A stretch of 42,543 nucleotides of DNA from Terriglobia bacterium. GTDB taxonomy: Bacteria; Acidobacteriota; Terriglobia; 20CM-2-55-15. A program made the position numbers and the translations under genes. The stretch's first letter is position 1. Each line of letters begins with the position of its first letter. Under the pieces are notes generated by a model that made no database searches, was not told where the DNA came from, and saw only the letters and a list, made by a program, of their open reading frames with translations. The stretch is taken from positions 1 to 42,543 of the forward strand of contig DASXLG010000307.1 in assembly GCA_036496425.1 (NCBI GenBank), in the 5' to 3' direction. Below, piece by piece: positions 15,718 to 39,043 of the stretch.

Positions 15718-16752
15718 TCAATGGAAAGCAAGTTTGGCCTTCCGGTCTTCTTCGGCCTTGATCCCGGGGCCGTATAGCTGTTCGAAGAAGCCTTCCTTCA
15801 CGAGACGCGCGACGATGCTGTTGTCGATGACGGAGCGAAAGTTGAATGCTTTCATCTGTGCCCCGACCTGAGCGTCCGAGGGATGATCGAGAATGTATTG
15901 CACCGCGGCCGTCAGGATGTACGGGACCCGTTCGTACGTGTTGATTTGCGAGTAATGGTCGTAGACGCGCTCCATGTCTGCCGGGTCCTGCTTGTCCCAG
16001 GCGAGATACGCCTTCACGGCGAAGGCCTTGTCATCATAGAAGCGTTTGATGGCCTCCGCGTGCGCTTTGATCAGCGCTTCGGGCAGCTTCGGGTTGGAAG
16101 CCACGAGGCTCTTCTTGAAGAGATAAACCGAGGGCGCATAGATGTCATCGTAGTCGCTGATATTGGCGAGGCTCTTATAACCTTCCTGTTCCAGCTTGAA
16201 ATAAACCGGCGCGGTGATCATCGTCGCATCGACACGATTTGCCACAAGCGCGGCCGCGCGGCCGGTAACGTCGGTGCCGACGCTGAGCCATTGCACATCG
16301 CGCTGCGTCAGGCCGGCTTTGGCCAGAAGGCCGATCGTGTAGTTGTAGGGCGCGTCGCCGATCTGGCTCACACCGAGTCGTTTGCCTTTCAGATCCTTCA
16401 TGCTGGTGATGGTCTTGTTCGCCATCAGCGCGAAAAGGCTTTTCTTGAAGGGACTGCCGACCATGACGAGGGATGCATCCTTCGAACTCGCCTGCATGGC
16501 CTGTTCGAGAGTGTACGGAGTCATCGCCGCTTCACCGCTGACGATCATCGCGATGCCCGCCGGATGCACACCGAAGGCCAGTTTCACGTCGTAACCATAC
16601 TTGGCGTAGTAGCCGCCTTCTTTCGCAATGTATAGCGGCCAGACCTGCCCGGTGCGTGTGGGATAGTTGATCGTGATCGGCGTCAGTGGCTGCTGCGGCA
16701 AAGACACCAGGGTTGAAACACTCAAGACCAGCGCGGCGATAAACATTCTCAT
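15718..16752 (-). CDS. NMT1/SsuA-like ABC transporter substrate-binding protein
   Basis: 344 aa from the ATG at 16752 (AGGAG upstream). The signal peptide is MRMFIAALVLSVSTLVSL. The mature part, beginning ITINYPTRTGQVWPLYIAKE, shows the NMT1/taurine-binding pattern: a GGYYAKYGYDV element, a VDATMITAPVYFK lid segment and IKAHAEAIKRFYDD near the end. It would deliver a small organic ligand to an importer, but no permease or ATPase gene adjoins it (the nearest such set is at 34.9-37.4 kb). It converges on the dioxygenase gene, ten bases apart. Confidence 0.88.
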   Translation of the reverse strand: MRMFIAALVLSVSTLVSLPQQPLTPITINYPTRTGQVWPLYIAKEGGYYAKYGYDVKLAFGVHPAGIAMIVSGEAAMTPYTLEQAMQASSKDASLVMVGSPFKKSLFALMANKTITSMKDLKGKRLGVSQIGDAPYNYTIGLLAKAGLTQRDVQWLSVGTDVTGRAAALVANRVDATMITAPVYFKLEQEGYKSLANISDYDDIYAPSVYLFKKSLVASNPKLPEALIKAHAEAIKRFYDDKAFAVKAYLAWDKQDPADMERVYDHYSQINTYERVPYILTAAVQYILDHPSDAQVGAQMKAFNFRSVIDNSIVARLVKEGFFEQLYGPGIKAEEDRKAKLAFH

Positions 16753-16899
16753 GCGGGACTCCTGTCGCCAAAGAATATGCGAAATGAGCGGCATGTCGTC
16801 AATATTTCGAACACCCTTTGGAAAACGAAGACTACCTCAAGGGGCTCGAAAATCTGCGGCTGTTGAGTGGCCTGATTCCTGAACCGCGCGTTCTCTGTT

Positions 16900-16932
16900 G
16901 CGCTTTTGTGCCTTTGTGGCTAATCCCCCTCT
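16900..16932. repeat. TTTTGTGCCTTTGTGGCT-type repeat overlapping a stop codon
   Basis: GCGCTTTTGTGCCTTTGTGGCTAATCCCCC is a half of the palindromic repeat seen complete at 40352-40412. The reverse strand of this copy supplies the last codons and the TAG of the epoxide-hydrolase-like gene (…GAGGGGGATTAG). Confidence 0.6.
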
Positions 16933-17813
16933 ATGGCGGTTTCGCCGGCCGTCTCCAATTGGAAAAACTCTATCAGGAGCTCGGACACCTTTGCCGGCTC
17001 CTCGTGTCCAAGCCAGTGAGTGGCATCGGGGAAGGGGAAGAATTCGGCATGAGTGCAATAACCCAGGCTTTCACGGGCCATTTCCAACAGCAGGAAATTG
17101 TCGCGTTCTCCCCACAGGATGCGCGTGGGCACACGCACGGTGCGGTCGGCAAAGCCCGTCCGGTAGCGCACGGCGGCGCGATACCAGTTGATCATGGCGG
17201 TGGGGGCGCCGGGCTGCGACCAAGCCGCGCGGTATTGCGCAAGATCGTCGGCAGAGAACGTGCCAGGACGGCTCGAGCGAAGCAGCGCGCGCCTGCCAGC
17301 GTAAAAATCAAATGCCGGCAACAATCGTTCCGGCAACCAGGGAATTTGAAAGAAAAATATGAACCAGCTTCGCATCATCTGCCGCGCCCGCGTACTCAGA
17401 AAACGGCGCATAACCGAGGGATGCGGCACATTGACGATGGCGAGCTTTGCAATGCGCTCAGGATGGAAGACGGCTGTGCTCCAGGCGACAGCGCCGCCCC
17501 AATCGTGACCCGCAAGAAAAATTCTCTTCTGTTCCAACTGATCGGCAATCGCGATCACGTCCGCAACGAGCTCGCTCAGCGCGTATGAAGCCACGCCTCG
17601 GGGCTTGCTGCTCAAATTGTATCCGCGCTGATCCGGCACGATGACGCGAAAGCCAGCCTCTGCCAGCGGTTCGATTTCTTTATACCAGCCATACCAGAAC
17701 TCGGGGAAACCATGGAGAAGCACGGCGACCGGTCCATCCTTTGGTCCTGCCGCCATGGCATGCAATACCACACGGCCGTTCTCAAAAAGAATTTTCTCGA
17801 GAGGCGTTTTCAT
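16920..17813 (-). CDS. alpha/beta hydrolase, epoxide hydrolase-like
   Basis: 297 aa. The oxyanion motif HGFPEFWYGW, the nucleophile elbow AGHDWGGA (Asp as nucleophile, as in epoxide hydrolases and dehalogenases), the acid in WGERDNFL and the final His in DATHWLGHEEP are all present. A lid region rich in Trp/Phe (RSWFIFFFQIPWLPERLLPAF) suggests a hydrophobic substrate. It is the last gene of the minus-strand operon, 14 bases after the JmjC-like gene. With a P450 and a desaturase in the same operon, a plausible role is opening an epoxide on an acyl chain; this is inference. Its 3' end lies in a dispersed repeat. Confidence 0.9.
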   Translation of the reverse strand: MKTPLEKILFENGRVVLHAMAAGPKDGPVAVLLHGFPEFWYGWYKEIEPLAEAGFRVIVPDQRGYNLSSKPRGVASYALSELVADVIAIADQLEQKRIFLAGHDWGGAVAWSTAVFHPERIAKLAIVNVPHPSVMRRFLSTRARQMMRSWFIFFFQIPWLPERLLPAFDFYAGRRALLRSSRPGTFSADDLAQYRAAWSQPGAPTAMINWYRAAVRYRTGFADRTVRVPTRILWGERDNFLLLEMARESLGYCTHAEFFPFPDATHWLGHEEPAKVSELLIEFFQLETAGETAIEGD

Positions 17814-17827
17814 CGAAGCACCGGTCT

Positions 17828-18865
17828 TTAGTCGGCATTGAGTGAGAGCCGGCGGACGGCCTTCGAGCGCTTGTCCGCGGCGAAGACGCGGATGAAGTCG
17901 CCGTCGTACTTGCTCGCTTCCCAGATCGGCGGGCTGGTCGAGAGCATCGTCAGGAGCGTCATCGTCGGCGACGCCCGGAGCATCGCGTCGAGCGAGATCC
18001 AGCGGACGCCGACGCCAATCGCGTCGCTCAGGTTCTCCACCTGGTGCCAGAAGAACGACGGGTTGTAGAGGATGTCGCCCGGCTCGAGCGTGACTTCGAA
18101 GCCGTCGACGAAGGGGAACATCGCGTAGCGGTTTTCGTCCGGCTTGTCCGGATCGAGATCGGTCATGAAATATGGCGTCCGGATGACGGAGGCATTGATC
18201 GCCGGGTTCAGCGACGTCGGGTAGATCCGCCAGTGCTTCCGGCCGTGGACCTCAACGAAGAGGTTCTCCGCCCCGGCGGCGTGCAGGCTCGTCTTTGTGT
18301 TTTTGCCGCCGAGGAACATGTTGAAGGTGAGGTGGCCCCCGATCTTCGACTTGAGGCTCGAGAGGAACCTGACGTCGAAGTCGTCGACGAGCTCAGGGTG
18401 CTTCTTCAGCAGCGGATGAAAGCGGGCGTATTTCTTCCCCCCAGCCTGGAGGCTGCGGACGACCTCACGAAGGGTCGTCATCTGGACCTCGTGGCCGAAC
18501 TCCTTGCCCGGCTTTCGTTCGCCGAGGAGCGCCTCATCGTCACCGTACTGATCGGCGATGAAGTCGGGCGTCCACTTCGACGTGCACGGCCAATCGAGGG
18601 CCGCACCCTCGAAGACGACCGGTATCGACCGGTCGCTATAGCGTGACTTGAAGTCCTCCGCGCTCAGGTTCCGGACCTTGTCGACCGAAACGAGCTTCCC
18701 CGTGGGCCGGCCCTGGACACGTGTGAGCATCCGGTCGGCGAGCCGTTTTCGCAGCGGGCCGACCGCGGTTCGGCCGAGGCAGTGCTCGCCCATCCAGAGG
18801 GCGTTGAAGAGGGCTTTGTCGATACGTCTGAACGTCGATTCGCCGAGCATGAAAACCTCTGCCAT
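17828..18865 (-). CDS. cupin/JmjC-like protein with an altered iron site
   Basis: 345 aa. A Cupin_8/JmjC core spans ~75-310: IPVVFEGAALDWPC, then LTFNMFLGG, the first metal motif region TSLHAAGAENLFVEVHG, KHWRIYP, and the distal His in LEPGDILYNPSFFWHQVENL. Fe(II)/2-oxoglutarate hydroxylases of this fold usually have HxD/E at the first site (for example LHYDxxEN); here the sequence is LHAAGAEN, so the acidic ligand is Ala. It may bind metal with two His, use E in GAEN instead, or be non-catalytic. It sits between the desaturase (12 bases before it) and the hydrolase. Role in the cluster unknown. Confidence 0.85.
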   Translation of the reverse strand: MAEVFMLGESTFRRIDKALFNALWMGEHCLGRTAVGPLRKRLADRMLTRVQGRPTGKLVSVDKVRNLSAEDFKSRYSDRSIPVVFEGAALDWPCTSKWTPDFIADQYGDDEALLGERKPGKEFGHEVQMTTLREVVRSLQAGGKKYARFHPLLKKHPELVDDFDVRFLSSLKSKIGGHLTFNMFLGGKNTKTSLHAAGAENLFVEVHGRKHWRIYPTSLNPAINASVIRTPYFMTDLDPDKPDENRYAMFPFVDGFEVTLEPGDILYNPSFFWHQVENLSDAIGVGVRWISLDAMLRASPTMTLLTMLSTSPPIWEASKYDGDFIRVFAADKRSKAVRRLSLNAD

Positions 18866-18877
18866 TTTATGTGATGC

Positions 18878-19675
18878 TCACAGGAATCCGGGTTCGTCGC
18901 CAGGGTTTGTTGCCAGGACGTCGTCAATAGAGCGCCTTTGTTCCACGCCGGAGGTTCGAAATCGCAGGATCCGGAGTTGTTTCAGCAGCCAGATGAGCGG
19001 GTATGCCGGATCGAATTCAAACCAGCGTACCGCGAAATGCGGCCGCATCGGATAGCGATGATGGTTATTCTGATAGAGTTCACCCATCATCAGCAAATCG
19101 ACGGGAAGCGTGTTGCGTGACCGGTCGCGCAATGCAAAGTTCCGGTATCCATAGCAATGACCGCACCAATTGACGATCGCGCCATGGACCACGCCGATCA
19201 GGAAGTGCAGCGGCAACAAAGCAAACATCCACAAGGATGTCGCGAACTGCCAGTAAAACCAGAAGTAAAGAACTCCCCACGAGACCCGCGTGTACATGGA
19301 ATCGCCAAAACGGTCCAGCGCTTCCCATTCCGGCACATCGCCCGTAAATTCGACGGCCGGCTCGATTTTCCGTTGGACCAGGCCGGCATATGTCCACTTC
19401 GTCTGCCACATCATCCGCGCCGGATTTGTGAAAAAATGCGGTGAATGGGGATCGCGTTGGGTATCGCTGTAGGCATGATGCATCCGATGCAGAATTGCGT
19501 AAGCTCGTGGCACCAGAAACGACGCGCCCTGGCTAAGAAATGTCAGCAAGTAAAACACTCGCTCGGCGGGACGCGAGAGCGTAAACATCCGGTGCGCGCC
19601 GTAGCGGTGCAGGAAAAAGGTTTGTGAAAACAGGCTGAGGAACCAGTGGATGGTGAGGAAAATGAATATCGGCAC
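18878..19675 (-). CDS. membrane fatty-acid (acyl-CoA/acyl-lipid) desaturase
   Basis: 265 aa. The three histidine boxes of the stearoyl-CoA delta-9 type desaturases are all present: HRYGAHR, HRMHHAYSD and NNHHRYP. Four hydrophobic segments place them at the cytoplasmic face. The reaction is O2- and di-iron-dependent introduction of a double bond into an acyl chain. It is 15 bases after the P450 stop and 12 bases before the JmjC-like start, hence in one operon. The electron donor is not encoded nearby. Confidence 0.93.
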   Translation of the reverse strand: MPIFIFLTIHWFLSLFSQTFFLHRYGAHRMFTLSRPAERVFYLLTFLSQGASFLVPRAYAILHRMHHAYSDTQRDPHSPHFFTNPARMMWQTKWTYAGLVQRKIEPAVEFTGDVPEWEALDRFGDSMYTRVSWGVLYFWFYWQFATSLWMFALLPLHFLIGVVHGAIVNWCGHCYGYRNFALRDRSRNTLPVDLLMMGELYQNNHHRYPMRPHFAVRWFEFDPAYPLIWLLKQLRILRFRTSGVEQRRSIDDVLATNPGDEPGFL

Positions 19676-19690
19676 GGTTGCGGCGAGACC

Positions 19691-21079
19691 TCAGTTCGTG
19701 TTGGCGGATCGCCGCCGCACCAGCTTTAACATCAACGTATTGTCCTCCGGCAGCAAGGTCACCCCGAGGTGGAGGCCGGGCGTCATCTGCGGCGGCGCAA
19801 AGTTAAACTCCTGCAGGATGCGGGAAACGACGAATCTGCTTTCCACCATTCCGAAAGTATTGCCGATGCAGGTCCTTGGTCCGCCGCCAAACGGGAAATA
19901 AGCAAAGTGCGGCAAACGCGAGATAAAATCGGGGCTCCAGCGCTCCGGGCGAAACTGTTCCGGCTCGTCATAGTAACGCGGCGAGCGATGAACCGCCCAT
20001 TGCGGAATCACAAGCTCGGCGCCGGCGGTTACCTTGGTGGCGCCCAAGTGACAGGTCTCCACGACAGTCCGGCTGATGCGGTATGCCGGCGGATAGAGCC
20101 GCATGGCTTCGCGCAGGACCTGCTCGATCATGCCGCTTTCGCTGCCGTCCTGAATGTGATGCCGCAGCCTCTCGGTGATTTCCGGATGTCGGGCCAGCAG
20201 ATAGAACGTCCAGGTGAGGACGGCTGCGCCCGTTTCGTGTCCGGCGAAAAACATCGTTACGACTTCGTCCCGGATCTGGCGGTCGCTCAGAGGGTGTCCC
20301 GACTCATCGCGAGCCGCGAGCAATAATCCCAGCAGATCAGGTTGCAACGGCTCCTGGCGTTTTCGCTTGATGATTTTGTTTACCGCCTGATCCAGTAGAG
20401 CGACGGCATCACGAAAACGTTTTGCGTACCCGGTCGGCAGGATGCAGGGATCGATGACAAAATCGGGGCGTCCCAACCATGTCGCGACGGTGCGAAAAGC
20501 CGTGAAAAACAGACCGCCAAATGAGCCGATCCATTCCGAGTAGTGATCGTGAAACGCATGCAGCGCCTCGGCCGCCTGCGCCACGAGCCGGCGTTCGCCC
20601 ATCATGTCTTCTCCGAACAGGCTTGAGGCCAGAGCTTCGAAACAGAGGTCCGTCATGTCGCAGTGAATGTTGCGTTCGCCTCCATCTATGAACCCCGCGA
20701 GCAGCCGTGCGGTAGCGCGCTGCATACTGCTCTTGTATTGATCGACGCGCTGTGCCTGAAACGCGGGCTGCATGATGCGCCGCTGTTGGCGCCACAGCGG
20801 GCCGTCCGCTGTCAGCAACCCCCGGCCGAAACCGCGCTGGGTTGCGCGCAGTCCCGCGGATTTCATGAAGCAGCGGTGTTTCCGCACCAGCACATCCTCG
20901 ATCAGCGATGGCTCCGTCACGACATAGACCGGCAGCCGCCAGACGTGCGTTTTCACCACTCCTGCCCGGCGTTCGCAGTCCGAATAGAATTCGAGCGCAC
21001 TGCTCCCCAGAGCGAAGGCGCAGCCGCTCAGCCATGACACGGACGGGTTCTGTGAAATTACACAAGTACTTGCACTCAT
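19691..21079 (-). CDS. cytochrome P450
   Basis: 462 aa from the ATG at 21079; a GTG at 21103 would add eight residues. The haem-thiolate motif FPFGGGPRTCIGN, the I-helix AGHETGAAVLTW, the K-helix ExxR (EAMRLYPP) and the FRPERW segment are intact. In the I-helix the usual Ser/Thr/Ala after the conserved Thr is Gly. Overall pattern resembles bacterial CYPs related to fatty-acid and xenobiotic hydroxylases. No signal or N-terminal anchor is evident. It lies 60 bases after the ABC ATPase gene and directly before the desaturase, so acyl-chain hydroxylation or epoxidation is a reasonable guess. No ferredoxin or reductase gene adjoins it. Confidence 0.94.
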   Translation of the reverse strand: MSASTCVISQNPSVSWLSGCAFALGSSALEFYSDCERRAGVVKTHVWRLPVYVVTEPSLIEDVLVRKHRCFMKSAGLRATQRGFGRGLLTADGPLWRQQRRIMQPAFQAQRVDQYKSSMQRATARLLAGFIDGGERNIHCDMTDLCFEALASSLFGEDMMGERRLVAQAAEALHAFHDHYSEWIGSFGGLFFTAFRTVATWLGRPDFVIDPCILPTGYAKRFRDAVALLDQAVNKIIKRKRQEPLQPDLLGLLLAARDESGHPLSDRQIRDEVVTMFFAGHETGAAVLTWTFYLLARHPEITERLRHHIQDGSESGMIEQVLREAMRLYPPAYRISRTVVETCHLGATKVTAGAELVIPQWAVHRSPRYYDEPEQFRPERWSPDFISRLPHFAYFPFGGGPRTCIGNTFGMVESRFVVSRILQEFNFAPPQMTPGLHLGVTLLPEDNTLMLKLVRRRSANTN

Positions 21080-21139
21080 ACAAATGGGATTCGGCCTTCG
21101 CACTATACCCTGTGGACCGGAAAACTCATACGGGGGAAA

Positions 21140-28307: not shown

Positions 28308-28706
28308 CTACCAGAGAGTGTGAACCTGCGAATAGTTTCGAATCCTTCGATCCTTCGTTATCAAGACGGCTGTGTAAGTTCGCGCGGTCGACACAATGAT
28401 TTGGTCGGCAGGATCGCCATGAAACGGTTTGGGCAAGCGGCAACTCTCGACGAGAATTCGCCGGTCGAGTTCCACCAGCTGCAGCGACCCCGGCGTCAGG
28501 GCCAGATCGAGCCAGTCGTTGAGGTCGCGATCAAGCGTGAGTTGTCCTTTTTCAACCTTCTTTGCCAATTCCCATATCGATATCATCGAGAGAAGAAGGT
28601 CCCTGTCTTCCACCGCCCGCGAAATCTCGGCTTTTGCCTTTCGCGATAACCGGGCGTCCTCGGTAACCCACCAAATCCAGGCATGCGTATCAAGAAGTCT
28701 CGGCAT
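28308..28706 (-). CDS. vapC: PIN-domain toxin, VapC type
   Basis: 132 aa. The four acidic residues of the PIN ribonuclease site are present: D6 in LLDTHAWIWW, Glu in ISIWELAKK, Asp in HGDPADQIIVSTA and Asp near ITKDRRI. VapC toxins cleave tRNA or rRNA when freed from the antitoxin. Its start overlaps the end of the upstream antitoxin gene by 17 bases, the usual toxin-antitoxin arrangement. The 250 bases beyond its end (28057-28307) show no gene. Confidence 0.93.
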   Translation of the reverse strand: MPRLLDTHAWIWWVTEDARLSRKAKAEISRAVEDRDLLLSMISIWELAKKVEKGQLTLDRDLNDWLDLALTPGSLQLVELDRRILVESCRLPKPFHGDPADQIIVSTARTYTAVLITKDRRIRNYSQVHTLW

Positions 28707-28914
28707 TCCACTCTTCCCCCGTACTGAAGGGGTCGCCGGACTCTTTCAGGATGCTGCCGGCAAGTGATTTTGAGGGGCCAGGCTTCAAATAGGGAACAAG
28801 ACGCGCAATCGGCCGTCCCCTCTTCGTAATGACTACCGATGATTTTGTTTTTGCCACCTCATCGAGCGTCTTCAAGCAGGTATTTTTAAACTTACCTGCG
28901 GCAATCGTTCGCAT
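28690..28914 (-). CDS. Phd/YefM-type antitoxin
   Basis: 74 aa from the ATG at 28914; a longer frame upstream (to 29049) would run into the pseudogene and adds non-family sequence. The N-terminus TIAAGKFKNTCLKTLDEVAK ... VVITKRGRPIARLVPY is the Phd/YefM DNA-binding fold. The acidic C-terminus (ESGDPFSTGEEW) would bind and block the toxin. It probably autoregulates the pair from the short gap upstream of 28914. Confidence 0.88.
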   Translation of the reverse strand: MRTIAAGKFKNTCLKTLDEVAKTKSSVVITKRGRPIARLVPYLKPGPSKSLAGSILKESGDPFSTGEEWNAETS

Positions 28915-29018
28915 GAGATGAATATAGCCACGACGAAATGGCCATGTCAATCCGGGATCAAGGGGAATCGCTCGTCTAAAATCCTGCGCGATATCTGCTG
29001 GTCGCGGCATTCTGCCAC

Positions 29019-29905
29019 CTACCGGCCTGCGGCTTGTTCCTCGAGCCATTTGTCATAGCTGCGCTTGGGAAGAGCGAGAGCGGCTACGCTGAGAGCCGAG
29101 TCTGACCGCTTTTTCGCCACATACCAGAGGAAAGCAGCGGGAGTTTCGATCACGGCGCTGACGTCGCCCGGCGCGCGCAGCTGGACGCGCAGGACGTTCT
29201 GTAACTGGGGAGGCAGATCGGCGAAGTAGAACTTCGTGTCCTGGCCGCGGGGTGCAGAGAGGATCTGCGCGTTGGGGCCGAACCGTTTCTGAATTTCGAT
29301 CTCATCGGCGCCGGGTGTGGGCTGTTGCGTTGGCGGCTCGCCAAACTGCCAGGTGGTTTCAATGACCGCGCCGGGATAGCCGCGTTTCAACAAAGCCAGC
29401 ATCCGGCCCTAAGGCTCGCCGCGCTGCTTTGCGGAGAGCAGATCGTTACGGGCTTGTTCGGTGCGCCGGCGCGCTGAGAAGCATGAAGGGCGTCGTCGTT
29501 ATCGAAGCGCTCGCGCAGCAGGCGCTCGACCACGATGGGCTTGACGAAAGAATTGGCGAAGCGAGAGTCGTCATTGCCCAGCGCGGCTTTGATTGCGGCA
29601 AGTATCTTCGGGGCGCGCGTGGTGGTCTCGATCCGTTTCACCTCTGCATCCAGCATTGCTGTCGTTACCTCGACCTTGTAGACCCGCTTCAGGGCGGACT
29701 CTTTCCTCAAATCGACCTGCACGAGATTTCGAGGGCTGCCGCAGGCAGCGCCTGCTCGAACGGCGGCTTCTGACCGGTGCGGTGGTTGTAATACACGCGC
29801 TCGATGGCTGCCCTGTCGGCGCGGATAGAATAGGTGAACGCAGTCCCTTGGGCGTGAAGCGGCACACCATTCAGCAGGCAAAGAATGACGAGTGACGCGG
29901 ATGAC
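29019..29905 (-). pseudogene. decayed gene for a secreted protein, possibly PpiC/SurA-like
   Basis: Three frames join into one protein-like sequence. Near 29890 a signal-peptide-like start reads ASLVILCLLNGVPLHAQG, then FTYSIRADRAAIERVYYNHRTG. The frame shifts near 29720 to LRKESALKRVYKVEVTTAML ... KAALGNDDSRFANSFVKPIV. A second shift near 29475 leads to RTEQARNDLLSAKQRGEP, which meets an in-frame TAG (29409-29411) before continuing as GRMLALLKRG ... RSYDKWLEEQAAGR. Two frameshifts plus a nonsense codon make it non-functional. The helical middle with a Leu-Leu-Arg-Glu pattern resembles the chaperone part of peptidyl-prolyl isomerases; that assignment is weak. Its 5' end abuts the hairpin repeat at 29893, which may have removed the start codon. 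Confidence 0.62.
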
Positions 29906-30027: not shown

Positions 30028-31098
30028 ATGCTGAACGCGGAAAGGCGCCGACAATTCCTGGACCTGATGGCGGAATCCGGCTGGGACACACTGCTCCTGT
30101 ACGGACATAGCTGGCGAAAAGACTTCTTCCGCTGCCTGATTAATTTCAATTTCTTTGGACCCCACGCATTGGCGGCGCTCACGCGATCGAATGAACTTTC
30201 TGTGGTCCTGGCGCATCCGTGGGATCGGGAACGCCTGTCGGGGAAAGTGGATGCGAATGTGACCTGGCAATCGGACTTCACAAGCGCGGTACGCCAATGG
30301 ACATCGGGCAAGACGGCAATTGCAGGCAGGGAGTTCATGGAGGCGCGGTTTGTCGAGGAAAGTAGCGTTTCTGCGACGTCTGCCGTGGAGGCCATCCGGC
30401 GCTTCAAGACCCCCGAAGAAATAGAATATGTCAAGCAGGCTGCGCGGCTGGCCGACGCCGGTTACCAGCATTTTGTCGATACGGCTGAAGTGGGCATGGC
30501 GGAGTACGAGCTTGTTGCAGAGGTCGAGGCCTTTCTGAAAACGAATGCGGCCGAAGATAACTTCATGCTGATCGGTTCGGGCGGAACCGAGGTCTTCGGG
30601 ATGAGGCCGCCGACGGAGCGGAAATTCCAGAAGGGCGATAACATCACGACCGAGCTGACGCCTCAGGTCAACGGCTACTATGCTCAGATCTGCCGGACCC
30701 TCGTTCTGGGCGAGCCGAGCGACAACCAGAAACGATCATTCGCCATCTTTCAGGAGGCGCAGGCCGCCGCCCAGAATTTCGTCAAGCCGGGCGTGAACGT
30801 GAAAGATGTCGCGAGGGTGCAGAACGATGTGTTCCGCCGCGAGGGTTACGCAGAATACACCGGCGCGAAATATACACGGGTCCGCGGGCACAACCTGGGC
30901 CTCTATCCGGACGAGAATCCGTGGGTGCTGGAAGATGTCGATTGTCTGGTCGACAAGGGAATGGTCGTGATCGCGCACCCCAACACCTACCTGCCGTTGT
31001 CGGGATACATGGTGTTCGGCGACACGCTTCTGGTGACGGATAACGGCTGCGTGTCCTTGAATAAGACCGAAAAGAAACTTTTCAGCAAAGAGGTGTGA
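30028..31098 (+). CDS. M24/creatinase-fold protein with most metal ligands replaced
   Basis: 356 aa from the ATG at 30028 (LNAERRRQFLDLM); upstream ATGs fall inside a repeat-like stretch. Residues ~1-125 are a creatinase N-like domain; ~130-356 are the pita-bread fold. In metal-dependent M24 enzymes the ligands are Asp, Asp, His, Glu, Glu. Here they read Glu in ITTELTPQ, Gln in YAQICRT, His in RGHNLGLYPDENPW, His in GMVVIAHPNTYLP and Gly in VFGDTLLVT. Only the His is kept. Creatinase shows that this fold can work without metal, so a metal-free hydrolase or lyase is possible. The next gene begins at the base after this stop. Confidence 0.87.
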   Translation: MLNAERRRQFLDLMAESGWDTLLLYGHSWRKDFFRCLINFNFFGPHALAALTRSNELSVVLAHPWDRERLSGKVDANVTWQSDFTSAVRQWTSGKTAIAGREFMEARFVEESSVSATSAVEAIRRFKTPEEIEYVKQAARLADAGYQHFVDTAEVGMAEYELVAEVEAFLKTNAAEDNFMLIGSGGTEVFGMRPPTERKFQKGDNITTELTPQVNGYYAQICRTLVLGEPSDNQKRSFAIFQEAQAAAQNFVKPGVNVKDVARVQNDVFRREGYAEYTGAKYTRVRGHNLGLYPDENPWVLEDVDCLVDKGMVVIAHPNTYLPLSGYMVFGDTLLVTDNGCVSLNKTEKKLFSKEV

Positions 31099-31872
31099 TT
31101 GAAACGAGGGCTGATCACGTGGGATAAATCGGAAATACCGCCAACGGTGTTTGAGCAGCGGGTGGATCGTGTGCGCCGCGTTCTGGCCGAACGCGAACTC
31201 GCGGCGCTGGTGGTTTATTCGGAATTGTGGCGGTCGAATCAGGCGCGCTTCTTTTGCAACTACATGCCGTATTTCAATCGCGCGATCCTCATCATTCCAA
31301 GGGATGTGCCTGCGACGCTTCTATGCGGGCTGTCGCCGCGCGTGTATGGATGGATCCGGTCGGTGACGACCATCGAAGATGTCCGCCCGGCAGGGAACTT
31401 CGCGAAGCCGCTTTTCGAGATTGCGACCGAGCGGAAGTGGACACGCATCGGCGCGCTGGATTTACCGCAATTCCCGTACGACATTCACGAGGCTTTGCAG
31501 TCTGGGCCGATGGAAGTTGCGAATGTCGAGTCGGCGGCGGTCTATCTGCCGGCTGAAGACCAAAGCGAAATCGCGATGCGGAAGAAAGCCTCTGAAATGC
31601 TGACGCGTGTTCTCGAAGAAGAGGTCCCGCGCGGCGTCGGTAAAGTGGACCACTATTTTGTCGGACAGCTCGAAAGGCGGCTGCGACGGGCGGGCGCGGA
31701 AGATCTAATTGTGCTGCTGAAGAACGGCGAAACGGTTGCGGCTCCGCCCAATGGAGCGGTGCTTAAAGAAGGGTATTCGGTCAGCCTGGCGCTGGAATAT
31801 CGCGGACATTGGGTGCGGGTTCCGGACAATGACGAATTCATGTGGGGATCGTATCCATATGAATGTTATTGA
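31099..31872 (+). CDS. half-length M24/creatinase homologue
   Basis: 257 aa, starting at TTG directly after the previous TGA (an ATG further in is less likely, since similarity begins at once). Residues ~15-150 form a creatinase N-like domain (FEQRVDRVRRVLAERELAAL, then IPRDVPATLLCGLSPRVY). Residues ~155-245 cover only the first part of a pita-bread fold (KKASEMLTRVLEEEVPRG ... LKEGYSVSLALEYRGHWVRV); the half that would hold the His-Glu-Glu ligands is missing. The gene ends inside the start of the next one (14-base overlap), and no lost remainder is visible in other frames. It probably pairs with the preceding full-length homologue. Function unknown. Confidence 0.8.
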   Translation: MKRGLITWDKSEIPPTVFEQRVDRVRRVLAERELAALVVYSELWRSNQARFFCNYMPYFNRAILIIPRDVPATLLCGLSPRVYGWIRSVTTIEDVRPAGNFAKPLFEIATERKWTRIGALDLPQFPYDIHEALQSGPMEVANVESAAVYLPAEDQSEIAMRKKASEMLTRVLEEEVPRGVGKVDHYFVGQLERRLRRAGAEDLIVLLKNGETVAAPPNGAVLKEGYSVSLALEYRGHWVRVPDNDEFMWGSYPYECY

Positions 31873-33106
31873 GAAGATCCTCGCGAAGGCGAGCGGCAGG
31901 AAAGAAGTGGCGCCCGGCGAAGTGATCATCGCCAATGTCGATTTGATGGTGATGCATGACCTCAGCGCGAATTTCGTCATGCGTGTTTTCCGGGAAGAGT
32001 TGGATGGCGGGACGATCCTCGATCCCTCCCGGATTGCGATTGTCTTCGACCATAACTTTTCGCCTGCCACCGAAGAGGCCGCGCGGACGTTGCATAAAGT
32101 GCGCCGGTTTGCCGCGGAGCACGGGATCCGGAATCTATTCAATGGCGGCAACGGCAGCCTTCATCATGTGATCATCGAAAACGGTCTGTGGGCGCCGGGA
32201 CAAGTCATCATCGGCTGCGATTCGCACACGCCCGTTTACGGAGCCCTGGGAGTGTTCGCGACCGGTGTCGGGAACAACTCGATGGCGGCGCTTGGATTCC
32301 AGCATGGAAAGGCCTGGTTCAGGATTCCCTCCACGATGCAGGTATTTCTCCACGGCAAGACACGCGGCACCGTGGCGCCCAGGGACGTTGCTCAGTACGT
32401 CGTTGGACATCTTGGAGAAGACAGCGCGATCTACCGGGCGCTGGAATATGCCGGGCCTTACGTCGAGCAGCTCTCGATTGAAGACCGCATGCTGTTCCCG
32501 CTGATGTCGATCGATCTCGGGGCGAAGGCGTCTTTCATTAATCCGGACGAGAAGACTGCTGCGTATGCGCGAGCATTCTCGAAGATCAAAGACTTCGAGA
32601 TGTTCACGAACGACGCGAATGCGAAATACGAGCGAATCGTCGATATTGACGTCTCCCAGCTCGAGCCTCAGGTCGCCTGTCCGCCGACCGTCGGGAATGT
32701 AAAGGGATTGTCGGAAGTCGAAGGCACCCATATCGACCTTGCGGAGATCGGCGGCAGCACGGGAGGCCGCCTCGACGACCTTCGCGTGGCTGCAGGCATA
32801 CTGAAAGGCTGCCGGATCGATCCCGGCGTCCGCCTTCAAGTCGTCCCGGCAAATCGCAGTGTCTATAAAGCGGCGCTTCAGGAAGGATTGATCGAAGCGC
32901 TGCACGATGCGGGGGCCGTTATCTTCCCGCCCAGCGCCGGATCCAATCAGGCGGTCAACATGGGCGCCATGAGCGAAGAGGAAGTGATGATCTCGAATCA
33001 GGCGAGAAATTTTCCGGGCCGCAACGGTCATCCGAAAGCGAAGCATTATCTGGGTTCAGCGCGGACGGTTGCTTCGTCCGCGCTGAACGGAAAGATCAGT
33101 GGTTAA
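31859..33106 (+). CDS. aconitase/LeuC-like protein without the Fe-S cluster cysteines
   Basis: 415 aa from the ATG at 31859, overlapping the previous stop by 14 bases. It follows the large subunit of 3-isopropylmalate dehydratase from end to end: ILAKASGRKEVAPGE, VDLMVMHDLSANFV, GCDSHTPVYGALGVFATGVG, DRMLFPLMSIDLGAKASFI, and NFPGRNGHPKAKHYLGSA. The three cluster cysteines are gone. The motif IGSCTN reads IGGSTG (Cys to Ser), and the PGCSMCL region reads PSAGSNQA (Cys to Ala and Asn). All other landmarks remain, so the fold is kept but a [4Fe-4S] cluster cannot be held in the usual way. No small (LeuD-like) subunit gene is nearby. Last gene of the operon; converges with the sugar dehydrogenase gene. 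Confidence 0.88.
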   Translation: MNVIEKILAKASGRKEVAPGEVIIANVDLMVMHDLSANFVMRVFREELDGGTILDPSRIAIVFDHNFSPATEEAARTLHKVRRFAAEHGIRNLFNGGNGSLHHVIIENGLWAPGQVIIGCDSHTPVYGALGVFATGVGNNSMAALGFQHGKAWFRIPSTMQVFLHGKTRGTVAPRDVAQYVVGHLGEDSAIYRALEYAGPYVEQLSIEDRMLFPLMSIDLGAKASFINPDEKTAAYARAFSKIKDFEMFTNDANAKYERIVDIDVSQLEPQVACPPTVGNVKGLSEVEGTHIDLAEIGGSTGGRLDDLRVAAGILKGCRIDPGVRLQVVPANRSVYKAALQEGLIEALHDAGAVIFPPSAGSNQAVNMGAMSEEEVMISNQARNFPGRNGHPKAKHYLGSARTVASSALNGKISG

Positions 33107-34858: not shown

Positions 34859-35614
34859 TCACGTTTGCATTCCCCACTTTCGGACTGTGGCGTTTTCGAT
34901 GGTCTTGAAAATCAGGTTCTCCACAATCAACCCCAGCAGAATGACGGTCAGCAACCCCGCGAACACGTTGGCGATCAAGAGTTGATTCTTGTTTTCGAAA
35001 ATGTACCAGCCAAGGCCTCCCGACCCCGAACTCACTCCGAAAACCAGCTCCGCTGCAATCAGGGTTCTCCAGGCGAAGGCCCAGCCGACCTTCATGCCTG
35101 TCAGAATGTTCGGGAATGCCGCGGGAACGAGAATCCGTGTGATGTAGCCCGCTTTGGAGAGGCCATAGTTCTGGCCGACCATTCTCAGCGTCGCGCTGAC
35201 TCCGCGGAATCCCGCGTAGGTGTTGAGCGCAGCGGACCACAGCACCGCATGAATCAAAACAAAGATGATGCTGTTATCGCCGAGTCCGAACCAGATCAGC
35301 GCGATAGGCAGCAAGGCAATCGACGGCAGGGGATTGAACATCGAGGTGAGAATCTCGAGCAAGTCCGATCCGATCCGGCTGGCGCTTGCAAACGCCGTCA
35401 GTACGCCGGCCAACAGCAACCCTGCAAGATATCCTTTCAGGAGAAGTGTCAGAGTAAATGAGACGGCTCTGGGAAGCTGACCGGAAACGATCGAGGAAGC
35501 CAGGGCGCGGACGGTCTGGACGAATGTGGGCAGCAGCAGCGGGTTGGAAAGCCACCTTGCATATCCTTCCCAGACAACAGCAAGGGCCATAAGCACGATG
35601 AGTTTTCTAAGCAT
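34859..35614 (-). CDS. ABC importer permease, SsuC/TauC type
   Basis: 251 aa from the ATG at 35614, overlapping the ATPase gene end by eight bases. About six helices are visible, including KLIVLMALAVVWEGYARWL and ILLGLIVENLIFKTIE. The cytoplasmic coupling loop is MVGQNYGLSKAGYITRILVPAAFPNILTGMKVGWAFAWRTLIAAEL, with the EAA-type motif of BPD_transp_1. It forms an importer with the two preceding genes. Ligand unknown: sulfonates, taurine, pyrimidine precursors and aromatic acids are all handled by this family. Confidence 0.93.
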   Translation of the reverse strand: MLRKLIVLMALAVVWEGYARWLSNPLLLPTFVQTVRALASSIVSGQLPRAVSFTLTLLLKGYLAGLLLAGVLTAFASASRIGSDLLEILTSMFNPLPSIALLPIALIWFGLGDNSIIFVLIHAVLWSAALNTYAGFRGVSATLRMVGQNYGLSKAGYITRILVPAAFPNILTGMKVGWAFAWRTLIAAELVFGVSSGSGGLGWYIFENKNQLLIANVFAGLLTVILLGLIVENLIFKTIENATVRKWGMQT

Positions 35615-36350
35615 GCATCGCGCCTCCGGGCGCGGTTGCATCGAACAGCATTTCGTGAACGTGCGCGGCCTCGAGGTTTACATTTTCGAGCTCGGCTTTG
35701 ACGCGGCCGGGTTGTGCGCTCAACAGGAGAATCCGCGTGCCGAGCCGGATCGCTTCGGGAATGGAGTGCGTGACAAAGATAACGGTGAAGCCGGACTCGG
35801 CGCAGAGCTGGAGCAGCTCCTCCTGCATTTTCGTGCGCGTCAGCGCGTCGAGTGCCGCGAAAGGCTCGTCCATCAGAAGGATTTGCGGGTTCATCGCCAT
35901 CGCTCTTGCAATCGCCACCCGCTGTTTCATGCCGCCCGATAAGGTGTGTGGATAATTTTCTGCGAATTTAACGAGGCCGACTTTCTCGATGAACGTATCC
36001 GCTCTCGCGCGAGCGCCGGTTCGGTGCAGTTTGCCGCTCGCCGTCAGGGCGAAGACGATGTTTTCCCGAACGGTCTTCCACGGTAGCAGTTGATCCATTT
36101 CTTGAAAGACGAAGATGCGGTCGGGACCGGGATTCTGAATGAGCTTGCCGTCCAGCAGGATTGTTCCTGCGGCGGGCTGAATATATCCGCCGATCGCGCG
36201 TAGAATCGTGGACTTTCCACATCCGGAGGGTCCGAGAATGACATATCGATCTGAGCGGGAAACTTGAAAGCTGACGCTTTCTACAGCTGTGAGGGACTGC
36301 TTGCCGTTGCCGTACTGCAACGTTACGTCGTCCACTTCGAGGAGATGCAT
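35607..36350 (-). CDS. ABC importer ATPase, SsuB/TauB type
   Basis: 247 aa. Walker A GPSGCGKST, Q-loop FQEMDQLLPW, signature LSGGMKQRVAIARAMA, Walker B ILLMDEPFAALD and H-loop FVTHSIPEA are intact, and the length is normal for nitrate/taurine/sulfonate transporters. Its ATG overlaps the TGA of the binding-protein gene (TGATG), so the operon order is binding protein, ATPase, permease. Confidence 0.95.
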   Translation of the reverse strand: MHLLEVDDVTLQYGNGKQSLTAVESVSFQVSRSDRYVILGPSGCGKSTILRAIGGYIQPAAGTILLDGKLIQNPGPDRIFVFQEMDQLLPWKTVRENIVFALTASGKLHRTGARARADTFIEKVGLVKFAENYPHTLSGGMKQRVAIARAMAMNPQILLMDEPFAALDALTRTKMQEELLQLCAESGFTVIFVTHSIPEAIRLGTRILLLSAQPGRVKAELENVNLEAAHVHEMLFDATAPGGAMHA

Positions 36351-37423
36351 CAGCTTCCCGGGTTGCTCTGAATCTCCGGGAAGAATAAATCCTTCCAGGA
36401 GCCGGGACGCGTGTTGATCGAACCAATGTCATGCATGAAGGTGGCGTACTTCATGATGTTTTCGGGAGCGGTCGTGAATTTCACGCTCGGGTCGTTAAGG
36501 ACGTCGAGGATTTCCTGCCGGGAGAACCCGATTTCGCCCGTCGCTTGAAGGAGGATGTCCGCCGCGCTTCCTTTGTCGCTGACGATGAGGCTGATGGCCT
36601 GTTGCAACGCCTTCAAGACGGCTGCATACATTTTCGGATTGTGATCTCGAAAAGCCGACGTGGTGGAAAGCATCGTAAAGGTTGTGGAGCCGCCCATGAC
36701 ATCATCCGATGTCATGACGGTGTGAATGTGCGGGTCTTTCCTCTCGCGTTGATGGAACGGCGGCGAAGTGAAGTGCGCGTCGACGGTGCCCGACCCAGCC
36801 AGCAGCGCGACGACGCCGTCCGGATGCGACATCGTAATGGTAAACCTGTCGAAGTGCGACACGTCGCCGGCGCCGAATTTCTGCCGCGCGTACATCTGCA
36901 TGACGATGGACGGAATCGACACCTTTACGGCGGTCACTGCAATTTTGTCCCGATCTGTGAAGTCTTCCAGTTTCTGTAAGTGGTCGGATCTGGCATTGAG
37001 ATACATCGGCAGCGATGACATCGCCGCCGCGCCCAGGACCTTTGCCGAATCGCGCGTTCTGTCCCAGAGGATAAGAAAGGCGGGAGGGCCCGCGGCAATG
37101 AAGTCCACGGAGCCGGAAAGCAGGGCGTCGTTCATGGCGGATGGACCGCCGAGGTCGATCCATTTCACATGCATGTTTGGTATGCCGGCGCTCCGAGCCT
37201 GTTCTTCAACGAGGTGATTCCGTTCCATGACAAGAAGCGGAAGAAACCCGACCCCGCCGGCCCCGCGTGGGATGCGAACTTCTGTGACTTCGCTTCCAGG
37301 AGGAGTTGCAGGCTTGCTGCACGCCGCGAGCAGAAAGAAGAAAGCTACAGCCGCGGAGCGGCGAAAGAGCTTAGCCACGGCTTGCACAGCGGAGATTGAG
37401 CGGTGTGTTTGACGGACTGGCAT
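36350..37423 (-). CDS. NMT1-like ABC transporter substrate-binding lipoprotein
   Basis: 357 aa from the ATG at 37423. A lipoprotein signal with lipobox LAAC (AVAFFFLLAACSKPATP) lies ~25 residues in. The mature domain has the NMT1/SsuA pattern: RIPRGAGGVGFLPLLVMER, WIDLGGPSAMNDALLSGSVDFIAAGPPAF, and HFTSPPFHQRE in the lid. Its start codon lies against the terminal palindrome of element copy 3, whose AAGGAGGGG provides a Shine-Dalgarno-like run right before the ATG. In-frame GTG codons further inside are alternative starts. First gene of the importer operon. Confidence 0.85.
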   Translation of the reverse strand: MPVRQTHRSISAVQAVAKLFRRSAAVAFFFLLAACSKPATPPGSEVTEVRIPRGAGGVGFLPLLVMERNHLVEEQARSAGIPNMHVKWIDLGGPSAMNDALLSGSVDFIAAGPPAFLILWDRTRDSAKVLGAAAMSSLPMYLNARSDHLQKLEDFTDRDKIAVTAVKVSIPSIVMQMYARQKFGAGDVSHFDRFTITMSHPDGVVALLAGSGTVDAHFTSPPFHQRERKDPHIHTVMTSDDVMGGSTTFTMLSTTSAFRDHNPKMYAAVLKALQQAISLIVSDKGSAADILLQATGEIGFSRQEILDVLNDPSVKFTTAPENIMKYATFMHDIGSINTRPGSWKDLFFPEIQSNPGS

Positions 37424-37660
37424 TCCCCTCCTTTTCAAGGAGGGGTGGCTGCGCCATCAATGAAATGGTCCCGTTCCTTCGCGGCGCAGACGGGCGCGAA
37501 GCGCGAGCCCGATAAGGCCGAAGCATTAAAGTGGTTAGTAAATTCAACAAAATATGGTGCGCTTCGCGATTCCTGGATAACCACCCCGTCCGCGCGGCTA
37601 ACGATGCTGCGCAACATTTTTTGAATCGCGCGGCCACCCCTCCTTGAAAAGGAGGGGAAT
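37422..37660. repeat. dispersed palindromic element, copy 3 (about 239 bp), inverted
   Basis: The ends CCCCTCCTTTTCAAGGAGGGG and CCCCTCCTTGAAAAGGAGGGG are inverted copies. The interior contains GGCGCAGACGGGCGCG, GTTAGTAAATTCAACAAAATATGGTGCGC (the core in reverse orientation to copies 1 and 2) and GATAACCACCCCGTCCGCG. It fills the gap 37439-37708 between the importer operon and the MmgE/PrpD gene; both are on the minus strand, and I see no other signal there. Confidence 0.88.
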
Positions 37661-37708
37661 GTCGCTCGATTTCCGTATTGGGAAACAGCCCAGAAGGCCG
37701 GGCGAACA

Positions 37709-39043
37709 TCATGGCGTTGTCGCCCTGATGACATCGTTGACGTCCGCGAGTTGATCGAAGCGCCAGCAGAGATCGATCAGTCGGTCTACCTGTGCTCCGG
37801 AAAGGCGGGGAAGCGCCTGATCCCGGAACTTTTCTTCAAGTTGCCGGTCGCTCAGTGGACGCCGCAGATTACCCAGAGATTGTTCAACAAAGCGGGTGAT
37901 CGTGCGGCCGTCCGTCAGATCGACCTCGATGTGTGATTGGTCTTCAGTAATCGAAGCGTCCCCAGTGGGACTAACCTTTTCGCGGACGTTTCTGATCGAC
38001 GGATCATTCACAGCCGCGTCGGTAAATTCCTGCAAACCTCCCTTACCCCGAACCAGGCCGATCGCCGCGGCATGATAGATCGAGTATTTGCTGTCGAGCC
38101 CTCGCATAATCTCCCGCTTATTGCAGAGATCCAGCACCAGCGGCGCGACCCGGACACGAACCGCTTTGATGGCATCCGGTTCCGGGCGGTAATCGCGATG
38201 CAGATCGATACAGCCGTCGATCGTGGGTTGCACGACGATACCGCATGGATAGGGCTTGTAGGTGTTGTAACGGATCTGGAAGTCTTCGCCAAGCCCGGCT
38301 GTAATTTTCGAGAGGTCGTAATCGGAGGCCAGAACCGCCGCAAAACCGCGCGGGCTTTCTATAGCGTATTCACCGGCCGTGAAGTTTTCCTTCGCCATGA
38401 TGGCGGCAAAGTAGCCGTTGCGCGCAGCGTGGCCGGCATGAAACGACTTGGCCATCGATCCGAACATCTCTCGAATACCGGAAGCCTGGGTTGCCGCGAG
38501 ACCCATTGCCCATATCATTTGCTGCGTTGAAAGGCCGATCAGCTTTCCGATCGCGGCCGCGGCGCCGAATACTCCGGCAGTTGCTGTAATGTGCCAGCCG
38601 GCATTGTAGTGCGCGGGATACACGGCATTGCCGATCCGCGACTCGGTTTCGAAACCTACCAGAAAGGCGTGCAAAAAGTCCTGCCCGCTGATGGGCTTGG
38701 TGCTTGCATATGCAAACAACGCGGATGCTACCGGAGGCGTCGGATGGATATAGTTCATCGGAGTCGTGTCGTCGTATTCAAACACGTGGCCGCTGATGCC
38801 GTTGATCACAGCCGCATATAGAGGATCGAATCGCTCGGCTCGTGCCAGCAGCGCTGCAGTGCGCTCGCCGGAGAAAGGCGAGAGCGCGCGTATCGCAATG
38901 TCGACCGCCGGTTCGCGGCTGCCTCCGACGGCACAGCCGACGAAGTTCAGGAGGGAGCGCCTGGCTTCGTGTATAACGTCGTTGGGAATCTGTTCGTACC
39001 GGCTCGACACGACGTAGGACGAGAGTGTTTTGGTTTGGGACAT
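37709..39043 (-). CDS. MmgE/PrpD family protein
   Basis: 444 aa, full length for the family (2-methylcitrate dehydratase, cis-aconitate decarboxylase and relatives, iron-free). Recognised by EARRSLLNFVGCAVGGS, the active-site-region block NGISGHVFEYDDTTPMNYIHPTPPV, the GFETESRIGNAVYP segment and the lid AGLGEDFQIRYNTYKPYPCG. It would act on a tricarboxylic or dicarboxylic acid by dehydration or decarboxylation. It is divergent from the CMD-like gene at 39087 across 43 bases, so both probably share a control region. Confidence 0.93.
   Translation of the reverse strand: MSQTKTLSSYVVSSRYEQIPNDVIHEARRSLLNFVGCAVGGSREPAVDIAIRALSPFSGERTAALLARAERFDPLYAAVINGISGHVFEYDDTTPMNYIHPTPPVASALFAYASTKPISGQDFLHAFLVGFETESRIGNAVYPAHYNAGWHITATAGVFGAAAAIGKLIGLSTQQMIWAMGLAATQASGIREMFGSMAKSFHAGHAARNGYFAAIMAKENFTAGEYAIESPRGFAAVLASDYDLSKITAGLGEDFQIRYNTYKPYPCGIVVQPTIDGCIDLHRDYRPEPDAIKAVRVRVAPLVLDLCNKREIMRGLDSKYSIYHAAAIGLVRGKGGLQEFTDAAVNDPSIRNVREKVSPTGDASITEDQSHIEVDLTDGRTITRFVEQSLGNLRRPLSDRQLEEKFRDQALPRLSGAQVDRLIDLCWRFDQLADVNDVIRATTP

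Follow-up and report, generated by a model that had tools for sequence, protein, structure and literature searches.

To our knowledge, every characterised enzyme of the aconitase superfamily, Aconitase X included, carries an Fe-S cluster. In the M24 (creatinase/prolidase) family, creatinase is without a metallopeptidase site, and in known M24 dimers a loop of the N-domain extends into the partner's active site. A stretch of 42,543 nucleotides from a Terriglobia bacterium (contig DASXLG010000307.1), the whole of which is called here 'the window', encodes members of both families whose cluster or metal ligands are replaced: an M24 protein, a second, degenerate M24 homologue (M24') and a relative of the large subunit LeuC (LeuC'). 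Together they make up the distal half of an operon of five to six genes that is conserved in some soil Acidobacteriota. To judge from residue patterns and gene content, this operon probably applies known folds to a small carboxylic acid through unfamiliar chemistry that uses no metal. An earlier note on this DNA had called the trio undescribed, and the literature searched (subscription papers mostly lay outside it) describes neither a cluster-free LeuC-family protein nor such a gene set. The genes are as follows.

30028..31098, + strand: M24, creatinase/prolidase fold (PF00557), 356 aa, five metal ligands replaced
31099..31872, + strand: M24', degenerate second M24 homologue with Creatinase_N retained but a shorter C-terminal domain; 257 aa, TTG start
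31859..33106, + strand: LeuC', cluster-free large subunit of the LeuC/HacA-type aconitase family, 415 aa

The tight packing reported earlier is exact in every coordinate, the window's reading frames giving a gap of 0 bases between M24 and M24' and an overlap of 14 bases between M24' and LeuC'. Against Pfam, M24 matches PF00557 Peptidase_M24 (114 bits, cutoff 23), M24' has a marginal match to Creatinase_N alone (22.1 bits, cutoff 22), and LeuC' matches PF00330 Aconitase (235 bits); LeuC' also exceeds the cutoff of the NCBIfam LeuC-family model NF001614 (432.4 bits against 385).

Cluster shell and active site of LeuC' and LeuD'

Ligand positions in LeuC' were taken from alignments to the isopropylmalate isomerase/homoaconitase (IPMI/HACN) of M. 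jannaschii and to mitochondrial aconitase, and residues were tabulated for 13 LeuC' and nine canonical LeuC proteins. Ser, Ala and Asn had been proposed at the three cluster-cysteine positions, and this holds across the family: the positions are S/A/N in 13/13 LeuC' (S300, A360 and N363 in the window) against C/C/C in 9/9 canonical LeuC, the alignment restoring a cluster cysteine in none of the 13. Other aconitase-family homologues checked in relatives retain these cysteines. In aconitase numbering, D100, H101, H147, D165, S166, H167, R447 and R452 are invariant across LeuC' and canonical LeuC, and the positions switched in LeuC' relative to canonical LeuC are C358, C421, C424, N258, E262, N360 and N446 (each fixed in LeuC', except that one of the 13 has Pro at N446). 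The corresponding positions in the window, with aconitase numbering in brackets, are these.

32162..32227, + strand: LeuC' H102 (H147) through D121-S122-H123 (D165-S166-H167), with invariant C120 beside D121; catalytic/substrate positions, kept
32756..32758, + strand: LeuC' S300, in the place of cluster ligand Cys358 (alignment to 1aco/4kp1)
32936..32947, + strand: LeuC' A360-G-S-N363, in the places of cluster ligands Cys421 and Cys424
33005..33022, + strand: LeuC' R383-N384-F385-P386-G387-R388 (R447 and R452), substrate carboxylate binding, kept

The small LeuD-like protein of the operon, LeuD', retains the equivalents of Ser642 and Arg644 ('NFGCSSGR' against the canonical 'NFGCGSAR') and lies above the TIGR02087 cutoff (155 bits against 109). 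Because LeuC' and LeuD' both exceed the cutoffs of general LeuC/LeuD-family models, automatic annotation would label them Fe-S isopropylmalate isomerases and so mis-state their function. The AlphaFold model of LeuC' (pLDDT 83.5) has the three-domain fold of aconitases and superposes on the IPMI/HACN large subunits with template-modelling (TM) scores of 0.90 (4kp1) and 0.91 (4kp2). LeuC' is thus a LeuC-family member by sequence and fold, yet without the defining feature of the [4Fe-4S] hydro-lyases. Membership of Aconitase X was considered and rejected, PF00330 being the sole Pfam match and PF04412 giving none.

In the tree, LeuC' forms one clade (support 100/100) on a stem of 1.68, and its ratio of non-synonymous to synonymous substitution rates (dN/dS) is 0.02–0.08, similar to that of its canonical neighbour. 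Since the clade is fully supported, its stem long and its dN/dS low, the simplest reading of these sequences is that the cluster site was lost once, long ago and under selection, not by decay; decay or a frameshift was ruled out by dN/dS and by the 13 orthologues. A selected, long-kept lineage that lacks only the cluster shell would separate the Lewis-acid role of the superfamily's active site from its acid-base role, and could reveal new chemistry.

One residue, C120 beside D121, is present in 13/13 LeuC' and is Thr in the neighbouring canonical LeuC. It figures in an alternative whereby LeuC' with LeuD' (LeuC'D') is still a metalloenzyme, holding a mononuclear Fe, Mn, Zn or Mg on H102, D121, H123 and perhaps C120, and performing Lewis-acid hydro-lyase chemistry. 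Aconitase H147, D165 and H167, all three of which are kept in LeuC', hydrogen-bond to the fourth iron site, and Aconitase X illustrates that the superfamily is able to alter its metal site (PMC8184944). However, the equivalents of H102, D121 and H123 are kept in every canonical member for substrate and acid-base reasons, and the vacated cluster positions, being Ser, Ala and Asn, gain no His, Asp, Glu or Cys; we consider a replacement metal unlikely.

The M24 and M24' pair

Alignment of M24 to prolidase (1pv9) places E, Q, H, H and G at the five metal-ligand positions, as the earlier note had proposed for the D/D/H/E/E set.

30652-30654, + strand: M24 E209
30685-30687, + strand: M24 Q220
30889-30891, + strand: M24 H288
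30976-30978, + strand: M24 H317
31018-31020, + strand: M24 G331

This pattern is invariant in 13/13 M24 rows (12 from Acidobacteriota and one from Neorhizobium galegae, at about 40% identity). C222 is also invariant, and M192 occupies the position of the prolidase active-site His in the 1pv9 alignment. The pair represents a second clean loss of a metal site in a metalloenzyme family, within the same operon as LeuC'.

M24' had been described as stopping half way. At 257 aa the window's copy is indeed short, but the stop reflects a C-terminal part that varies family-wide: full-length orthologues have 311–335 aa, and in four other genomes M24' is only about 240 aa long and lacks the C-terminal part. 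A 317-aa orthologue gives an AlphaFold model (pLDDT 87.5) with TM scores of about 0.64–0.75 to M24 folds (prolidases, creatinases), and the most conserved stretch of M24' is the N-domain region 40–90. Because it is the N-domain loop that enters the partner's active site in known M24 dimers, the natural reading, by analogy, is that M24 pairs with M24' in a heterodimer that has a single working site.

The window being one contig of a 407-piece draft genome, and its M24' being shorter than that of the nearest relative, mis-assembly, sequencing error or decaying genes might be suspected. That explanation is already refuted: the same substitutions recur in 13 genomes of several families, the frames are full-length and their order conserved, dN/dS is 0.02–0.14 where computable, and the short M24' is shared with the four genomes above. 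The earlier view that these genes are not decaying stands; they are intact and under selection.

The M24-M24' pair was also found on Neorhizobium plasmids in the plasmid collection. The order in N. galegae is HyuA - HyuB - M24 - M24' - PrpD-family - ABC transporter, and the MmgE/PrpD-family gene overlaps M24' by 4 bases, in the slot of LeuC'. The MmgE/PrpD family includes hydro-lyases and decarboxylases that are independent of an Fe-S cluster. This replacement, although suggestive only, is the best hint that LeuC'D' may perform a related cluster-free step. On the HAMBI 540 plasmid (L045, 3077-13057) the locus comprises HyuA-HyuB hydantoinase/oxoprolinase, M24-M24', PrpD-family and NitT/TauT-type ABC genes. 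A second M24-M24' pair with no adjoining LeuC' or OCD-family gene lies in genome G647 (L083, C162, 525-2596 and 10020-13290), on a contig that also holds canonical LeuC-LeuD followed by what appears, by eye, to be a UbiD-family decarboxylase. The best LeuC-type matches in the plasmid collection were 38% identical to LeuC', compared by identity alone.

The operon and its distribution

In-depth sampling covered Acidobacteriota genomes, nearly all of them draft assemblies, and public plasmids. Linkage of the three genes was borne out in other genomes, but the trio is not the self-contained unit that had been supposed: LeuD' partners LeuC', and genes for an OCD-family protein and a major facilitator superfamily (MFS) protein share the operon. 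Mapping of all genes by tblastn gave the order MFS - LeuD' - OCD - M24 - M24' - LeuC' in most loci (at least nine), and the operon often has as its neighbour a canonical LeuC-LeuD pair encoded on the other strand. Orthologues of the trio with identical substitutions occur in three same-family relatives (on one contig in two of them, over two contigs in the third), and in the loci of these relatives the OCD-family gene and the small LeuD-like gene stand in front of M24. The OCD gene, outside the window, matches PF02423 (141 bits, cutoff 24), and the MFS protein is nearest to L-lactate/oxalate transporters. The operon is probably of catabolic type.

Profile searches of 399 genomes of the class found LeuC' in 13 (5 genera, 3 families), M24 in 14 and LeuD' in 13, with OCD present in 14/14 M24-carrying genomes; the mismatches are two draft genomes in which a contig ends at the absent gene (G010 for LeuD', G005 for LeuC'). 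A first LeuC' alignment against all GTDB contigs gave seven matches, all in Acidobacteriota metagenome-assembled genomes, with patterns narrow enough that carriers in other phyla are possible. An M24' profile run on 396 genomes of the phylum returned the window and two weak matches only, a scarcity due to the few carriers in that sample.

In the window's own genome the operon is divided. LeuD' and OCD (73% and 77% identity to the query orthologues) lie together but apart from the trio, where contig C125 ends (31576-32049 and 30485-31558). The split looks genuine, because the same-genus genome G005 shows a like separation, with M24 on C895 and LeuD'-OCD on C650. The canonical LeuC-LeuD pair lies elsewhere in the window's genome, adjoining a LarA-type nickel racemase gene (L031, G000:C382, 7806-10859).

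Further genes flank some loci. Only in close relatives is the operon followed by an Amidohydro_2 gene, and one or two of these relatives also have an NMT1-type ABC transporter. In L062 (11352-15706), Amidohydro_2, an NMT1-type binding protein, an ABC ATPase, a permease and an RraA/HMG-aldolase-like gene (the last two assigned by eye) lie downstream of LeuC' and perhaps belong to a longer carboxylate pathway; L064 likewise has an Amidohydro_2 gene there. In L030 (G002:C154, 3597-4662) an N-terminally truncated OCD adjoins an inverted 62-aa M24 gene fragment, either a rearrangement or an assembly artefact. Within the window, a PIN-domain/Phd-YefM-like toxin-antitoxin pair lies upstream of M24 (28308-29049, - strand), and a NitT/TauT-type ABC transporter with an MmgE/PrpD-family gene lies downstream of LeuC' on the opposite strand (34859-39043, - strand), the PrpD family being the one that also adjoins the M24 pair in Neorhizobium. 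A run at 15718-21103 (- strand) of NMT1-like binding protein, alpha/beta hydrolase, cupin/JmjC-like, fatty-acid desaturase and cytochrome P450 genes looks like a small biosynthetic cluster.

Proposed pathway and relation to known systems

The earlier note left the choice between new chemistry and a binding complex. Because the cluster is lost while the active site is otherwise retained, an altered enzyme is favoured over a plain binding complex, and we infer metal-free catalysis. We give about even chances to a scheme, built on residue conservation and gene content, for a carboxylate pathway in which LeuC'D', as an active cluster-free lyase/isomerase, is joined by an imine reductase of the OCD family and by an M24 heterodimer free of metal.

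Under this scheme LeuC' and LeuD' would form a heterodimeric LeuCD-like enzyme whose [4Fe-4S] cluster was lost once, in the ancestor of the clade, while the substrate pocket and the small-subunit Ser/Arg were kept. Given that retention, LeuC'D' would still bind a polycarboxylate and deprotonate carbon, taking the alpha-proton, and would proceed by a lyase, isomerase or decarboxylase step without an iron Lewis acid; activation of a hydroxyl by iron would be impossible, making loss of amine or CO2, or double-bond/imine isomerisation, the candidate steps instead of loss of water. The catalytic domain of M24 would combine with the N-domain loop of M24' in a single active site that might cleave or rearrange a C-N bond metal-free, in the manner of creatinase. 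OCD would reduce or form the matching imine, the MFS protein would import the acid, and the adjoining normal LeuC-LeuD, where present, may act further on the unsaturated acid by hydration or isomerisation. By analogy, a nitrogen-containing carboxylic acid would be the most economical class of substrate, because the operon combines an OCD-family enzyme (imine reductase/cyclodeaminase) with an M24 fold akin to that of C-N hydrolases. Only tentatively do we propose the bolder version, a new pathway in which LeuC'D' is a metal-free aconitase-fold catalyst (possibly a C-N lyase, decarboxylase or imine isomerase) in series with an obligately heterodimeric metal-free M24 and the OCD reductase.

Several points weigh against catalysis in a common pathway. 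Operon integrity is dispensable, LeuD'-OCD and M24-M24'-LeuC' being on different contigs in the window's genome and in G005; the two modules could act on separate molecules, given M24-M24' without LeuC' in N. galegae and in the second copy of G647; H102, D121 and H123 with C120 could hold a different metal; and ordinary dehydration should be impossible once the Lewis acid is gone, so that LeuC'D' could be a binding or regulatory module. In a further alternative LeuC'D' and M24/M24' are both non-catalytic, forming a binding, regulatory or scaffold complex. RNA-binding apo IRP1 and the non-enzyme domains of M24 fold, such as that of SPT16, are precedents; catalytic metal sites are missing from both modules, the M24' C-terminus is variable and dispensable, and SPT16 is also among the matches of the predicted M24' model. 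However, invariance of every substrate and acid-base residue in LeuC', and of the Ser/Arg in LeuD', is more than pure binding would demand, and a transporter and an OCD enzyme in the operon indicate metabolism; a wholly non-catalytic role seems improbable.

Among described systems, Aconitase X (including mevalonate 5-phosphate dehydratase) resembles LeuC' in belonging to the aconitase superfamily and in having an altered cluster site. It differs in that LeuC' has no PF04412 match and, in the fold search, is only about 13% identical to it, and AcnX carries a [2Fe-2S] or [3Fe-4S]/[4Fe-4S] cluster held by other cysteines, with different substrate residues (PMC8184944, PMC10040528). AcnX-I genes are described as often lying within L-hydroxyproline clusters (PMC5144071). 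The MmgE/PrpD family (2-methylcitrate dehydratase, cis-aconitate decarboxylase) fills the LeuC' position beside M24-M24' in Neorhizobium, but its fold is unrelated to that of LeuC'.

Creatinase and the ectoine hydrolase DoeA/EutD share with M24 the pita-bread fold and offer hydrolase activity on small-molecule C-N bonds, and a protein of the OCD family, EutC (NCBIfam TIGR02992), likewise occurs in ectoine gene sets. M24, in contrast, scores far below both NCBIfam ectoine hydrolase models (59.1 against 575 and 43.7 against 613 bits), has Met in place of the active-site His of prolidase, and is always adjoined by a degenerate M24'. The OCD protein is of the same family as iminosuccinate reductase BhcD and the pyrroline-2-carboxylate reductases but reaches 100.7 bits against a BhcD cutoff of 500. 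On family scores an ectoine, creatine or hydroxyproline pathway was rejected, none of the models reaching its cutoff.

The closest likeness is to 3-isopropylmalate/homoaconitate isomerase, LeuC-LeuD/HacA-HacB (NF001614, TIGR01343, TIGR02087), which has the same separate subunit genes, fold, substrate and acid-base residues, and Ser642/Arg644 equivalents. LeuC' differs from it in lacking both the cluster cysteines and the cluster-contacting N258, E262, N360 and N446, and the LeuC' and LeuD' genes stand at opposite ends of the enzyme-coding genes, with OCD, M24 and M24' between them.

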